Origin: an uncultured Candidatus Saccharibacteria bacterium
GTDB lineage: Bacteria > Patescibacteriota > Saccharimonadia > Saccharimonadales > Saccharimonadaceae
Length of the DNA: 32,354 nt
Direction of reading: 5' to 3'
NCBI GenBank assembly: GCA_946530935.1
Contig: CAMNAJ010000005.1
Location: 1-32,354 of the forward strand
Part shown: piece by piece, positions 11,415 through 18,086 of the stretch
Layout of the letters: each line of letters starts with the position of its first letter
Numbering within the stretch: position 1 is the first letter of the stretch
Notes under the pieces: model-generated
Told to the model about the DNA's origin: nothing
What the model saw: only the letters and a program-made list of their open reading frames with translations
Database searches by the model: none
Program-made: the position numbers and the translations under genes

Positions 11415-11747
11415 TCACTTACGTGGGGTAGAGATATTTGCCCCACGACCATAATCTGGCAAAATAATCTTAACGATTTCTCCGTGATGGTTTTTTAGTG
11501 GGATCTTAAGTTCATTTGCGAGAGTATTTACAACGGCAGCACCAATTCGAAGGCCAGTAAATGACCCAGGACCAGACATAAAAGTGATTTCTTCGAGATC
11601 TTTAAAGTCTTTTCCGTTTTCTTGAAGCTTATCACGAAGGAATTTTAGGAGGTTTTCAGCAAGATCGCGACCTGATTCCCAAGAATACTCTTTGTTGTCT
11701 AATCTTAAAATGGTTGTTGGTGTGGAAGTATCTAGATACATTTTCAT
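11415..11747 (-). CDS. tsaB: Short TsaB-like protein (tRNA t6A biosynthesis), N-terminal domain only
   Basis: MYLDTSTPTTILRL ... FMSGPGSFTGLRIGAAVVNTLA is the TsaB signature; 110 aa, adjacent to tsaE. Confidence 0.82.
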   Translation of the reverse strand: MKMYLDTSTPTTILRLDNKEYSWESGRDLAENLLKFLRDKLQENGKDFKDLEEITFMSGPGSFTGLRIGAAVVNTLANELKIPLKNHHGEIVKIILPDYGRGANISTPRK

Positions 11748-12160
11748 TTTACTAAAACCTCGCGTGAACCATCGTCATTTAACGATAATTCAATGATTTT
11801 TCGATTATTTGGAAGGAAATTTTCGACAGTATTTGCCCATTCTACTACTATAACTGCGTTAGAATTGTTTAAGTTTTCTTCTAAATCTTCTGTCATAAGC
11901 CCAGGGTCGTTTAGACGATAGAAATCATAATGGATTAGAGTGTACTCTTTTCCATCTTTCTTAAATGCATATGATTTAGAAATCGTAAAACTTGGGCTGG
12001 TGACTTTTTCTTTGATGCCAAGTCCTTCCGCGAGGCCGCGTGTAAAAGTGGTTTTACCGGTGCCGACGTCACCTAAAAGTTCAATCACAATTGGAACAGA
12101 AAGCTTGGAGGCAAAGTCTCTACCGAAGTTTAGCATTTCTTGTTCTGATGTAATTTTCAT
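11744..12160 (-). CDS. tsaE: tRNA threonylcarbamoyladenosine biosynthesis ATPase TsaE
   Basis: LLGDVGTGKTTFTRGLAEGLGI, SPSFTISKSY, HYDFYRL. Track ORF extends to 12424 but the TsaE-like start MKITSEQEM is at 12160. Confidence 0.93.
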   Translation of the reverse strand: MKITSEQEMLNFGRDFASKLSVPIVIELLGDVGTGKTTFTRGLAEGLGIKEKVTSPSFTISKSYAFKKDGKEYTLIHYDFYRLNDPGLMTEDLEENLNNSNAVIVVEWANTVENFLPNNRKIIELSLNDDGSREVLVK

Positions 12161-12174
12161 TGTATAATTATAAC
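12161..12174. promoter_or_regulatory. 14-bp bidirectional leaderless promoter core between tsaE and murC
   Basis: TGTATAATTATAAC: plus-strand TATAAT 12163-12168 and minus-strand TATAAT (complement of 12167-12172), each 6 nt from its own ATG. Confidence 0.75.
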
Positions 12175-13395
12175 ATGAAAATATATATTTCTGGTATCTC
12201 TGGAACAGGGATGGGGCCACTAGCTTTAATGGCGAAACAAGCTGGATTAACGGTATTTGGTTCGGATAAAAATGCAGGTATGATTTTACCGGAGTTAGAG
12301 ACGGCTGGAATTGAAGTAAAAATTGGTGAGCAGGATGGTGAGTTTTTGAAACAAAAAATTGCCGATGGGGTAGATTGGTTTGTATACACATCAGCTCTTC
12401 CAAAAGATCATCCAGAATTAACAATCGCTAAAGAGTCAGGAGTTAGAGTCACAAAACGTGACGAACTAACGGAATATCTAGTGCGTGAACTTAATCTTAA
12501 AATGGTGGCGGTGGCTGGCACACATGGCAAGACTACTACTACTTCAATGATTACTTTTGCTGCTTTAAAACTTGGAATCCCAGCCGCATATATTGTGGGC
12601 ACTACACTTGGTTTTGCTCCTAGTGGTAGTTATAAACCGGGAGATGAATTCTTTATTTATGAGGCTGATGAATATGATAGAAACTTTTTGATGTTCCATC
12701 CATGGTTAGCGGTTTTTCCAAGTGTGACTTATGACCATCCAGATGTTTATCCAACAAGAGAAGATTATTTGGAGGCATTTTCGCAATTTAAGGCACAATG
12801 CGAAAACGTGATTGATGAAATTAATGGCGATGTAGATTTTAAATTAGCTGGTGCAGCAAGAAGACGTGATGCAGAACTTGCTATGACGGCGATTCTAAAT
12901 ATGGCGCCAGAAATAGAAACCGAAAAAGTTAAAGCGGTACTTGATGAGTTTCCTGGTGTAGGTAGGAGATTTGAGCGTCTTGCAGACGGAATTTACACAG
13001 ATTATGCGCATCATCCAGAAGAAATTGCCGCAACGCTTGACGTAGCAAAAGATGAAGCAAAAATTCGTGGCAAAAAGGGTATTGTTGTGGTCTACCAACC
13101 ACATCAGAATACTCGTCAGCATGAAGTACGCGATGGTTACGTTGATGCATTTATTGGTGCTACAAAGATTTATTGGATTCCGACTTATTTGACGCGCGAA
13201 GATCCGGATTTGGTAGTTTTAACCCCTGAAGAATTAATTGCTGGCCTAAAAAACGCAGATGTCGCAGAGCCAGCAGAATTAAATGATGAGCTATTTGAAA
13301 AAATAATAAAGTACCGCGATGAAGGTTATTTAATACTACTAATGACGGCTGGTCCGGCGGATTCGTGGCTTAGAAAAAACGTTGAAAAATCTTAG
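12175..13395 (+). CDS. murC: UDP-N-acetylmuramate--L-alanine ligase (MurC-type Mur ligase)
   Basis: MKIYISGISGTGMGPLALMAKQAG, AVAGTHGKTTTTSMI, DYAHHPEEIAATL. Track start 12160 includes the promoter. Confidence 0.88.
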   Translation: MKIYISGISGTGMGPLALMAKQAGLTVFGSDKNAGMILPELETAGIEVKIGEQDGEFLKQKIADGVDWFVYTSALPKDHPELTIAKESGVRVTKRDELTEYLVRELNLKMVAVAGTHGKTTTTSMITFAALKLGIPAAYIVGTTLGFAPSGSYKPGDEFFIYEADEYDRNFLMFHPWLAVFPSVTYDHPDVYPTREDYLEAFSQFKAQCENVIDEINGDVDFKLAGAARRRDAELAMTAILNMAPEIETEKVKAVLDEFPGVGRRFERLADGIYTDYAHHPEEIAATLDVAKDEAKIRGKKGIVVVYQPHQNTRQHEVRDGYVDAFIGATKIYWIPTYLTREDPDLVVLTPEELIAGLKNADVAEPAELNDELFEKIIKYRDEGYLILLMTAGPADSWLRKNVEKS

Positions 13396-13416: not shown

Positions 13417-14079
13417 ATGGTGGAAGGTAATGACGCTGTTTCTACGCGTGGAAAAGAAAACACAAAACGCCTAACAATTCTTCTCGGCATTTTGTGCTTT
13501 TTGATAGTTGGTTTAACGGTCACAAATGTTTTGTTGCTCTTAAATAACAACAAAGGTGGTAAGGAGAGTGGTGAAGAAGGCGGAGAAGAGATTATTGCAG
13601 CCTGTTCAGATTATTGGCAAGTTACCGATGCGGTGCATTGTGTTCAAGAAAACTATGTTTATGATGCAGAAACACTGAAATATGGTGAAAGCAATTGTAC
13701 TGGTATATGCTATGAATACTATAAAACAGCAGTTGCTTATATAGAATCGCACAATAGCGCAGAAAATGTAAAAAATATAAGAGGGATTTTTGATGAGTTT
13801 ATTCTAGCCGTAAACGACGATAAGTCGGCATACGGGTTAAAACTAATGCGCGATAAAGAGATTTCAAAACTTGATTTTTCTGATGAATTCAATAATGAAA
13901 TGCTTAATGATGCACTCGAAGCTGACGGTTTTTTCAAATCTGTTTCATCGGCTGATTACGTGATTGTTCTTGCATATCAATTAAATAGACAAGATGTAAT
14001 TGATAGCTACACAAAAATTAAAGTCGAAAGAGAGCTTGCTGAAGGCGTAGACTCGAGCAAGGGATTGGGGCAAGGATGA
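13417..14079 (+). CDS. Uncharacterised single-TM protein with extracytoplasmic domain
   Basis: TM segment LTILLGILCFLIVGLTVTNVLLLL followed by Cys-containing exported domain; ATGA overlap with next gene. Confidence 0.7.
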   Translation: MVEGNDAVSTRGKENTKRLTILLGILCFLIVGLTVTNVLLLLNNNKGGKESGEEGGEEIIAACSDYWQVTDAVHCVQENYVYDAETLKYGESNCTGICYEYYKTAVAYIESHNSAENVKNIRGIFDEFILAVNDDKSAYGLKLMRDKEISKLDFSDEFNNEMLNDALEADGFFKSVSSADYVIVLAYQLNRQDVIDSYTKIKVERELAEGVDSSKGLGQG

Positions 14080-17000
14080 AACATTTTAAAAAGAATCGAT
14101 TGATGGTTGCAGTAATTGCTTTGATGGTAATGTTCTTTGCTGCGTTAACTATACATAACGAAGTAGAAGCTTATACCTGGAGCTGGGACGATCCGGACTG
14201 GAGCTGGTGTGTTAAAAGTGCTGGTGAAGGTAGGTCTGATATTTATTCTGTGCAGTGGGCTTGTTGGAAAACGCGTCCTGCGGACGGAAGCTATGGTTGT
14301 GCAATTTGGTTAGGTTCGCCGACCGATACAAGTACTTTAATTTATCTTGATGAGGGTGATACAACTGTTTACGGTTATTATTATAGGATGTGTACTTCTG
14401 TAAATGGCGTTTCTCACAATGATGCGGCTTCAAACGTTTATGCATACAATGACGGTGATTCGATTGGTTATGGTGGTTATGTGGGGGGTGGATATTGGGC
14501 AAGCCCTGGTAGTACGAGAGTTTCCATCAATGTTGCAAGTTTTATTAATGGTGCAAGCGTTAGGTATGAAGATGATTATACGTATTATTCCAGGACTATT
14601 ACTATTAATCGTTGTAATGCAACTAATACATCTTCTTGTGATACTCAGGACGCAAATATTACTTTGGCCGTGAGAAAACCGCAGAAAAAGAAATTGACGA
14701 TGATAGCCATAGATACGAATGGTCAATCATTGTCTAGTTATGCGCCAAACCAAGAAGTTGAGGTGAATTCCGGTTCGTCGGCTTCTTTGACGGCTTATGA
14801 TTTATCAAGTTATCACTATATAAAAGTAAAGTGGGGTACTAGCACTTGGAACAGTAGTTGGTGGGATGATGCTAATAGAACTTATACAGTCGGTTCTCTT
14901 ACGTCGGATACGACTATTTATGCGGTTTATCAATTAGACCAAAAAACACTTACGATGAAAGCAGTTGATTCGAATGGTAATTCATTATCGCATTTAATGG
15001 CAGATAAAAGTGTGACAGTTGTTGCTGGTAGTTCAGCGTCGCTTACTGCTGATAATCTAGTTGGATATACAAAAAAGTGGTGGGGTACGAGTGCGACTGG
15101 TGGGCGTACTGCAAACACCGGTATGACGTATACCGTAAATCCACTTAATAGCAATACGACAATTTATGCAGTTTATGAGCGGCACGAATTTGCGGCAAGA
15201 GCGCGAGTATTTGAAGGAAATAATACTTCGGGCACAAATAGTAAAAGTACTGGCTATGTTGAAACGAACAATACTCAGACTTTAAATATTAACTGTTTAA
15301 ATAGCGGCTGTACGGCAACATTTGATTTAGCGGCTAAAAATGTAGTAGGCTCTGCGGCGATGAATTATGTAGTTTATCGTTCTCAAAATGGTGGTTCTGG
15401 TTCAACACAGTATGTTAATCCGGCGAGCCCTTATGCAATGAGCTCAAGTGGAACTACTATTAAGATATATAGTGGTGGAAATTATCTAAATTCAATCACT
15501 GAAACTATTTTGCCTGGTCAAACGGTTTGTTATTACATTACTTTCTATCCGTTTGGGTCTTATTCTAATACTACTACTGCCACTGCTAAAGCTTGCGCGC
15601 ATGCTAATCCATCAACATTCGAAGGTCAATCTAAAGTGACTACTGGTTCTGGCACAACGACAAGTGGTTGGAGAAATACAAGTACGAATGGTACACAAAA
15701 CATTAGTGGCTGTACGACAGCTGGTTGCAGTATTACATTCCAACATTATTTAAGAAGAACATCTGGTATTGGCAGCACTACTTATAATGTTACAAGAACT
15801 TCCAATTATTCAACTATTTCTGGTGCAACACTAAAGAGTGGGACTGAAGCGTTTACTGGAGTTTCTAATAATACAAGCGTCCTTGAATATCAGGAAACGA
15901 TTACTTTGATGCCTGGACAAGTGGTTTGTGAGACACTCACATTTAAGCCGTCTAACGATGTTGTAAATGTGGCTAGTAACGTTGTAATTAAAATTTGTGC
16001 ATCTGCTCTTGGTAATGCGCAACCACCTGATCCTACTCCTCCTACAACACTAGATGACGATGACTTAAGTGATGCTTTCCTTGATATGCGCGTAAAGAAT
16101 CCTACTGGTGCTACAGAATACCGTAAGTACCAGGAGACAGTTTACGCAAAACCAGGACAGGTCTTAAGTTACCGTTCGTCCTATAATCCGGTTTTGCAGT
16201 ATGCATACTATGTCTATCCACAGAAGTTTAGATTAAATGGCACTGGTACAGTTTATCCAACCAGCGGTATTAACACAGCTAGTACACTTGGTACGATGTT
16301 TAATGCATATAAAGGTTCTTATGGAAACTGGAACAATTCATATACAGTGTTCAGTAAAACCGGTGGCTTCTTATCTGGATATTCTGAAGACTTTATCTAC
16401 TCTAATGGCCAGACGGAGAAGAGAGTTAATACTAATACTCACCAAGTAAAGACCGGTGAAGTTGGTAGAAATCTTGCTGAAACTGCAGCAACCAACAAGA
16501 ATAATCGTACTAAAACTACCGTAAGCCAAGTAACATTTACAGCAGATGGTAGTAGCAACAACGTTGCAAACACGTATACGGCTAATAAAACAAGTACGGC
16601 TAATGCTTATGTGCCTTACAACTATGATACAACTCTCAAAATTGAGGAAGATGACGATGAAGTGATTTATGCTGGCGAGGAAAAGAATATTAAGTACGAA
16701 ATCGATGTTATTCCAAAAACCAATAACAAGACAACCGATGGCTCTGATGGCGAAAAATATGCGACGATTATGCGTGATGCAATTAGTAAAGTCGTGATTT
16801 ATCTGGGTACGGAAAAGCCACAAAGTAATGGCTGGAATGGCACTAGGACGGCTGATGTTTGTAACTACTTTATTGGTGCAGCGAGCAATGGTACCACTTG
16901 TAAGTTTGCAAACGAAAAGACTGAAGATTTGAACCCGTCTGGTATATTAACTGGTTCTCAGCATAAGCTTGAACTGTTGATGCAGGTTCCTGACGTTGTA

Positions 17001-18086
17001 GCTGGAACACAGCTTTGTGTCGCTGTGGCAAGTTTCCCAGCTTCTAGTGGTTTGGCTACAAACTGGGATAGTACAGACGGTAATAATAAATGGCGTATTT
17101 CGAAGTCACGCTGTTTTACGATTGCAAAGAAACCACTGTTTGAAGTTTGGGGCGGAAGCGTGTATTCTGGTGGCTCTATCAGAACAGCTGTCACAACAAA
17201 GAACAACCTAGCTGGCGTTGGTGATCTCGGTGGTGTAATCGTGTTTGGCTCATGGTCAGAACAAAGCGTAGTATCACTTGGACAGACGTTTGGTATGGCT
17301 TCTGGTGCAGCTACTGGTCTTGCTACTAATGCAGCTGGTGGCGGTAGCTATGAAGGTAGTACACCGGTCTATTGTACCCACCGTGTACCACTAAGTCTTG
17401 CGAACTATTCTAGCTCAGCACTTTCCGGCATTTGTGGAAATACGCAAGCAACTGGTAATTCTGGTATTTCAGCGGTAATTTCAAATAAAGAATCATTAGT
17501 TGGTACTTTACCAAATGAAGACAGTAAAGTATACGAATATACAGCTAATAGTACAATTGCACTTAATAACACTGGCGGAAAAGATGTAATTCGTTATAAT
17601 TCTAGTGCGAGCCTAACCATTAATGCTAGCGTAGCGAATACTGGAAAAACACATATTGTACATGCTAAGGGCGATGTAATGATTAATGGTAATATCACTT
17701 ATCAAGGTGGCTCTAGCACTACTTATAGCGATATGGGTAGTATTCCAAAGGTAATCATCTATGGTAACAATATTACAATTGGTTGCTCTGTGACTACGAT
17801 TAACGCAATCTTGATAGCGGAACAAGACATTACCACCTGTGCTTCTTCTGATATTAATTTGAGAGCAAATTCAACACAACTTACTATTAATGGTGCGATT
17901 ATTTCGAACAAACTATTCTTAAATCGTACTCATGGTGCTGCCACTGGTGCCAACTCAAAGGTTCCGGGCGAAATTGTGAACTATGATATTTCTACGCTAC
18001 TTTGGGGGCGTGCTAAATCTGATCCTGGTAACGAACATAAAAACCTTACGGCTGTTTATTCGCACGAAATTGCTCCAAGATACTAG
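14076..18086 (+). CDS. Giant exported surface protein (1336 aa) with repeated domains
   Basis: N-terminal signal peptide (VAVIALMVMFFAALTIHNEVEA), Thr/Ser/Asn/Tyr-rich, two InlB/Flg_new-like repeats and two Cys-pair repeats; long open frame. Confidence 0.8.
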   Translation: MKHFKKNRLMVAVIALMVMFFAALTIHNEVEAYTWSWDDPDWSWCVKSAGEGRSDIYSVQWACWKTRPADGSYGCAIWLGSPTDTSTLIYLDEGDTTVYGYYYRMCTSVNGVSHNDAASNVYAYNDGDSIGYGGYVGGGYWASPGSTRVSINVASFINGASVRYEDDYTYYSRTITINRCNATNTSSCDTQDANITLAVRKPQKKKLTMIAIDTNGQSLSSYAPNQEVEVNSGSSASLTAYDLSSYHYIKVKWGTSTWNSSWWDDANRTYTVGSLTSDTTIYAVYQLDQKTLTMKAVDSNGNSLSHLMADKSVTVVAGSSASLTADNLVGYTKKWWGTSATGGRTANTGMTYTVNPLNSNTTIYAVYERHEFAARARVFEGNNTSGTNSKSTGYVETNNTQTLNINCLNSGCTATFDLAAKNVVGSAAMNYVVYRSQNGGSGSTQYVNPASPYAMSSSGTTIKIYSGGNYLNSITETILPGQTVCYYITFYPFGSYSNTTTATAKACAHANPSTFEGQSKVTTGSGTTTSGWRNTSTNGTQNISGCTTAGCSITFQHYLRRTSGIGSTTYNVTRTSNYSTISGATLKSGTEAFTGVSNNTSVLEYQETITLMPGQVVCETLTFKPSNDVVNVASNVVIKICASALGNAQPPDPTPPTTLDDDDLSDAFLDMRVKNPTGATEYRKYQETVYAKPGQVLSYRSSYNPVLQYAYYVYPQKFRLNGTGTVYPTSGINTASTLGTMFNAYKGSYGNWNNSYTVFSKTGGFLSGYSEDFIYSNGQTEKRVNTNTHQVKTGEVGRNLAETAATNKNNRTKTTVSQVTFTADGSSNNVANTYTANKTSTANAYVPYNYDTTLKIEEDDDEVIYAGEEKNIKYEIDVIPKTNNKTTDGSDGEKYATIMRDAISKVVIYLGTEKPQSNGWNGTRTADVCNYFIGAASNGTTCKFANEKTEDLNPSGILTGSQHKLELLMQVPDVVAGTQLCVAVASFPASSGLATNWDSTDGNNKWRISKSRCFTIAKKPLFEVWGGSVYSGGSIRTAVTTKNNLAGVGDLGGVIVFGSWSEQSVVSLGQTFGMASGAATGLATNAAGGGSYEGSTPVYCTHRVPLSLANYSSSALSGICGNTQATGNSGISAVISNKESLVGTLPNEDSKVYEYTANSTIALNNTGGKDVIRYNSSASLTINASVANTGKTHIVHAKGDVMINGNITYQGGSSTTYSDMGSIPKVIIYGNNITIGCSVTTINAILIAEQDITTCASSDINLRANSTQLTINGAIISNKLFLNRTHGAATGANSKVPGEIVNYDISTLLWGRAKSDPGNEHKNLTAVYSHEIAPRY
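14688..15183 (+). repeat. Two tandem InlB/Listeria-Bacteroides-like (Flg_new-like) protein repeats within the giant surface protein
   Basis: KKLTMIAIDTNGQSLSSYAP...SGSSASLTAYDL...TSDTTIYAVYQL and KTLTMKAVDSNGNSLSHLMA...AGSSASLTADNL...NSNTTIYAVYER; boundaries approximate. Confidence 0.65.
15185..16015 (+). repeat. Two tandem Cys-containing domains within the giant surface protein
   Basis: RVFEGN...INCLNSGCTATF...LPGQTVCYYITFYP...KACAHA and STFEGQ...ISGCTTAGCSITF...MPGQVVCETLTFKP...KICASA; boundaries approximate. Confidence 0.6.

Follow-up and report, generated by a model that had tools for sequence, protein, structure and literature searches.

Bacterial bidirectional promoters have divergent start sites 7-25 bp apart, and two polymerases cannot bind them together (PMC10268837, PMC12825309). 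For the Escherichia coli examples of Warman, Grainger and colleagues, spacings of 18, 10 or 23 bp between transcription start sites (TSSs) are preferred, as typical rather than obligatory values (PMC10268837, PMC12825309). Leaderless '-10 next to ORF' promoters place a TAnnnT box close to the start codon, at a constant distance upstream of it, with no Shine-Dalgarno (SD) sequence (Zheng 2011, PMC3160421; Deinococcus-Thermus, PMC12340547). A term search of PMC3160421 and PMC12340547 gave no mention of Saccharibacteria or TM7, whichever of the two names was searched, or of divergent pairs, and the open-access literature that we searched offered nothing relevant on leaderless promoters or start-site maps for Saccharibacteria or CPR.

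We describe a 20-bp module between the tsaE and murC genes of a Saccharibacteria genome. It shares with the bidirectional promoters described by Warman, Grainger and colleagues a short -10 sequence read on both strands, but it allows two full TATAAT boxes with 2 bp in common where theirs has one pseudo-symmetric box. Its start spacing, for starts that are themselves predicted, is 15 bp rather than 18, 10 or 23, and it differs further in that both RNAs are predicted to be leaderless, with the start codons inside the promoter. It resembles leaderless -10/ORF promoters in the distance of its TAnnnT and in the lack of an SD sequence; unlike them, it consists of two that interlock. It is also like extended -10 promoters, TGnTATAAT without a -35 being the genome-wide consensus here, whereas its TG comes from the start codon and -1 C of the opposite gene, read in complement. 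The module would work as the known bidirectional promoters crossed with leaderless -10-to-ORF promoters.

If this is true, the region is near the smallest possible for control between two genes: it would do without leader, ribosome site and -35, with -10 bases shared and start codons doubling as promoter elements. It would show how far gene control can be compressed in the streamlined genome of the tiny parasitic Saccharibacteria. It would also offer a defined, testable rule linking -10 box and TSS for a bacterial group that is large, mostly uncultured and, as far as we found, lacks a published start-site map. Its near-identical copies would make a natural series of bidirectional promoters in which to study how polymerase chooses its orientation. 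Annotation based on SD sequences may, if so, misplace starts in these genomes.

DATA AND METHODS

The window is the whole stretch of DNA analysed, 32,354 nt, and is contig 5 (CAMNAJ010000005.1) of a 650-kb genome that is 83% complete (assembly GCA_946530935.1). The nearest named relatives of this genome are Candidatus Saccharibacteria MAGs, many of ruminant gut origin. Gene starts are our own ORF calls, not curated annotation.

Promoter statistics cover 548 of the 650 kb of the source genome, with 455 genes. Conservation is given for the 29 genus genomes, among those examined, in which tsaE is divergent from murC. The exact module was defined as CAT-NN-TATAATTATA-NN-ATG and searched as CATNNTATAATTATANNATG, with the reversed sequence as control.

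THE tsaE/murC LOCUS

Features of the locus are collected in Table 1. The product of murC scores 231 bits against the NCBIfam murC cut-off of 335; Pfam and the best family agree with MurC, and the low score and short length are what a divergent lineage would show. The N-termini of both the tsaE and murC products are conserved in the 29 genomes, which backs both start codons.

Table 1. Features of the tsaE/murC locus, in window positions
Feature	Position	Strand	Remarks
tsaB	11415..11747	-	downstream of tsaE, stop/start overlap; TIGR03725 at cut-off
tsaE	11744..12160	-	138 aa; TIGR00150 above cut-off, PF02367
TTGTTC, weak murC -35 candidate	12140..12145	+	17-bp spacer; within tsaE codons for Glu-Gln
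Bidirectional promoter module CATTGTATAATTATAACATG	12158..12177	both	two start codons and two interlocked -10 boxes
tsaE start codon (CAT)	12158..12160	-	
Predicted tsaE TSS	12160	-	first base of start codon; from 7-nt box-to-start rule
Gap between start codons	12161..12174		14 bp, TGTATAATTATAAC alone
murC promoter -10 box TATAAT	12163..12168	+	6 nt before ATG; preceded by TTG (12160-12162), no TGn
tsaE promoter -10 box TATAAT	12167..12172	-	6 nt before ATG
Overlap of the two boxes	12167..12168		2 bp
TGT (TGn) extension of tsaE -10 box	12173..12175	-	T complements A of murC ATG; G complements -1 C
Predicted murC TSS	12175	+	first base of start codon; from 7-nt box-to-start rule
murC start codon (ATG)	12175..12177	+	
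murC-type Mur ligase	12175..13395	+	406 aa; best family TIGR01082, under its cut-off; three Mur_ligase Pfam domains

The geometry claimed by a sequence-only reading of the window (a 14-bp gap reading TATAAT on both strands, two shared base pairs and a 6-nt distance between each box and its own ATG) is exact to the base, and the TGn that it saw on the minus strand is there. The predicted starts are 15 bp apart. The -10 elements overlap on opposite strands, as in a bidirectional promoter; the TGn that marks an extended -10 precedes TATAAT on the tsaE strand and is missing from the murC strand. The overlap measures 2 bp because two perfect TATAAT boxes pack with that overlap in this orientation (TATAATTATA), a sequence found once in the window where 0.15 occurrences would be expected by chance.

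The same reading had put forward TTGTTC as a -35 candidate for murC. The position and spacing stand, but the candidate is weak: it matches TTGACA at 3/6 positions and is not listed by a consensus promoter scan, nor does a -35 signal show in the logo built from 98 leaderless promoters of this genome. The Gln codon is CAA in 27/27, against 63% CAA in window genes, in lineages that are related and with a conserved protein motif. The murC strand is without the TGn that most of its peers have, and its -35 candidate is weak, which counts against the two-way reading.

A second MurC-type ligase, 54% identical, is present in the same assembly (G000:C4:38282-39484; L058, L165). It also has a leaderless-type box, TATAATTAAGTT-ATG, and is either a paralogue or bin contamination. 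MurC-type ligases 57-58% identical to the murC product of the window are found in Butyrivibrio sp. MC2021 and AE3009 (on large contigs) and in Lachnospiraceae MAGs (L097, L099, L100, L103), a likeness that possibly reflects gene transfer between lineages. Neither of the two genes 3′ of murC (13417-18086; 220 and 1336 aa) matches an NCBIfam family; the 1336-aa product, whose sole match is a sub-threshold Ig-like hit, is perhaps a surface protein.

A GENOME-WIDE RULE FOR LEADERLESS-TYPE PROMOTERS

A TATAAT-like hexamer lies exactly 6 nt before the first ATG in 87 of the 455 genes and 7 nt before it in 34, over a background of ~8 per position further upstream. Leader genes have it at 6 nt in 27/112 cases, internal ATG codons in 11/1346, and no peak at 6 nt appears among these internal codons. 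The logo of the 98 promoters with a box at 6 nt reads T(R)TGnTATAATAAAnnY-ATG, with T in 90% and G in 79% at -15/-14 and a pyrimidine (T/C) at -1 in 91%.

SD-like motifs precede none of the 135 box-bearing genes and 131 of the 320 others. There are therefore two initiation classes, of which the predicted leaderless class includes tsaE and murC: TAnnnT stands ~6-8 nt before ATG above the genomic background, an SD sequence is absent, and at this locus only 14 bp are available for any.

The same box rule holds in another genome of the genus (G050); it is weaker in one from another family of the order (G094), where the peak is at 6-8 nt. Beyond the genus, TAnnnT is found 6-8 nt before the murC ATG in 10/11 genomes of other genera. 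Most same-genus genomes in which murC has no divergent tsaE keep a box ~6-8 nt before its ATG.

PROPOSED MECHANISM AND INVERSION OF tsaE

The idea of a compact bidirectional promoter that would yield two leaderless mRNAs, already present in the sequence-only reading, is strongly supported, because the genome-wide leaderless rule, the conservation and the recurrence at unrelated pairs all back it. Geometry, genome-wide use, conservation, recurrence and the lack of an SD sequence can be read from the DNA itself. Positions 12158-12177 very probably form a self-contained leaderless promoter of the extended -10 kind, which the housekeeping RNA polymerase would use constitutively in both directions.

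We infer start sites, sigma factor, polymerase alternation, constitutive expression, strength and regulation along the following lines. RNA polymerase with the housekeeping sigma factor would bind in one of two orientations, read one TATAAT (TGn-extended on the tsaE side) and melt the AT-rich core. Transcription would start at or within about a base of the A of ATG and yield one of two leaderless mRNAs, tsaE-tsaB or murC, on which the ribosome would then initiate.

Mutually exclusive firing, which had also been proposed, would hold as far as binding goes, simultaneous occupancy being sterically forbidden (PMC12825309). One could go on from there to a regulatory toggle, in which exclusive binding of polymerase couples tsaE and murC expression inversely. 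Such a control device seems unlikely, for E. coli promoters of this kind have too low a basal activity for competition (PMC12825309), tsaE and murC are unrelated housekeeping genes, and their pairing is not conserved.

The pairing is broken in six genus genomes (L006, L012, L019, L023, L067, L068). There the module-bearing tsaE is inverted and reads toward murC, the module lies between tsaB and tsaE, and murC is without a box of its own. On the simplest reading, tsaE and the two-way promoter would have been inverted together, and tsaB would now be served by the promoter's other half. A MurC tree, which is a single-gene tree, needs three changes for the four inverted genomes with full MurC sequence; gene transfer may also account for this pattern, the tree being single-gene. 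The bidirectional promoter was likely selected for genome compaction, in combination with leaderless translation, rather than as a regulatory switch.

CONSERVATION AT tsaE/murC

The start-to-start gap is 14 bp in 22 of the 29 genomes, 16 bp in 2 and 18 bp in 5. Conservation of the motif in related genomes, which the sequence-only reading had named as a check, is complete for the tsaE-strand TATAAT (29/29), while the murC-strand box is perfect in 22/29. The five genomes with the 18-bp form have their boxes 10 nt from ATG, and the arrangement may therefore work without being strictly leaderless.

The uneven conservation could mean that one direction alone is real: the symmetry of TATAAT would have produced the second box incidentally, and transcription of the other gene would begin further upstream, within its neighbour. 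TATAAT is indeed inherently near-symmetric, much of the divergent transcription in bacteria arises as a by-product (PMC10268837), and the murC-strand box varies in 7/29 genomes and is without TGn in 23/29. Yet each start lies exactly 6 nt from its own box, the murC box is found beside murC even where tsaE is not, box-bearing genes have no SD sequence, and the two-sided geometry is seen at unrelated pairs as well, all of which makes a single direction very unlikely.

The six genomes with TGn on the murC strand all have an imperfect box, so that TGn accompanies 6/7 imperfect murC boxes and 0/22 perfect ones (Fisher 1.5e-5, among related lineages). Genome-wide the trend is absent, TGn being found with 54/71 perfect and 21/27 imperfect boxes. 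We dropped compensation of imperfect murC boxes by TGn as proof, given the relatedness of the lineages and the lack of a genome-wide trend.

RECURRENCE AT OTHER GENE PAIRS

Forty-five sites of the exact module are present in 24 of 60 genus genomes, five of them in the source genome of 650 kb, and the reversed sequence gave none in either the 60 genomes or the source genome. No site was found in 40 genomes from the order's other genera, nor in 96 genomes from the order of Butyrivibrio, a control with larger genomes. Outside the genus, 3 of ~378 genomes of the phylum have it, two of the three without a real gene on one side; the module is confined mainly to one genus. The relaxed form CATNNTANNATNNTANNATG stands at 90 against 6 within the genus.

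A gap of 14 is the commonest start-to-start distance between two leaderless boxes in the source genome (5/13 pairs); against these five, ten genome-sized order-2 Markov sequences had one such pair. The arrangement had been called unusually compact, which is right in general, but here it is a part used again at other pairs.

About ten unrelated gene pairs flank the module across the genus. In addition to tsaE/murC they include thymidine kinase (tdk)/uracil-DNA glycosylase (ung), dnaG/a 204-aa protein of no known family, glycyl-tRNA synthetase (glyS)/ABC transporter, smpB/glycosyltransferase, triose-phosphate isomerase/HAD hydrolase, glutaredoxin/RlmB-like methylase, epimerase/a 475-aa protein without family, tRNA-Val/prfA (L205, G000:C20:12954-12973; prfA by profile) and tRNA-Arg/a 344-aa protein (L191). 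One copy in the source genome, on C11, has no long ORF on either side.

A tRNA gene lies on one side of the module at three sites (L185, L205 and L191). There the box precedes the tRNA by a few bases, and at tRNA-Val/prfA the tRNA begins a few bases past the predicted start. A tRNA needs no start codon, and a box beside one supports transcription start, not translation, as the cause of the spacing. Five-residue ORFs beside some copies of the module were considered as leader peptides; this was ruled out, as they are tRNA genes.

TGn is found on both strands at 29 of the 45 sites and on one strand at 16. Its TG is read from the complement of the start codon (CAT) and -1 C of the opposite gene, in the window on the tsaE strand only. 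The palindrome might instead serve chiefly as the operator of a dimeric regulator of both genes, with its promoter likeness secondary. This is most improbable, for although CATGNTATAATTATANCATG is a perfect palindrome in several module copies, the paired -10 boxes, starts and TGn elements fully explain the symmetry, the N positions vary freely, genes with a single leaderless promoter have the half site alone, and the pairs served are unrelated housekeeping genes.

For the bidirectional promoter, we lean slightly toward a broader account, in which this Saccharibacteria lineage has made a standard 20-bp part, CATGN-TATAATTATA-NCATG, whose start codon and -1 C, read backwards, are the TG of the opposite extended -10. 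The part would have emerged at, or spread to, some ten unrelated divergent pairs, and being symmetric it would let a gene and its promoter flip in place with both neighbours still expressed, as for tsaE, tsaB and murC.

A second compact divergent form, with 30 bp between starts, occurs at L164 (G000:C3, ~22822 and 36971). It has back-to-back extended -10 boxes with one common CATG (ATTATANCATGNTATAAT), which, being palindromic, supplies TGn to both boxes.
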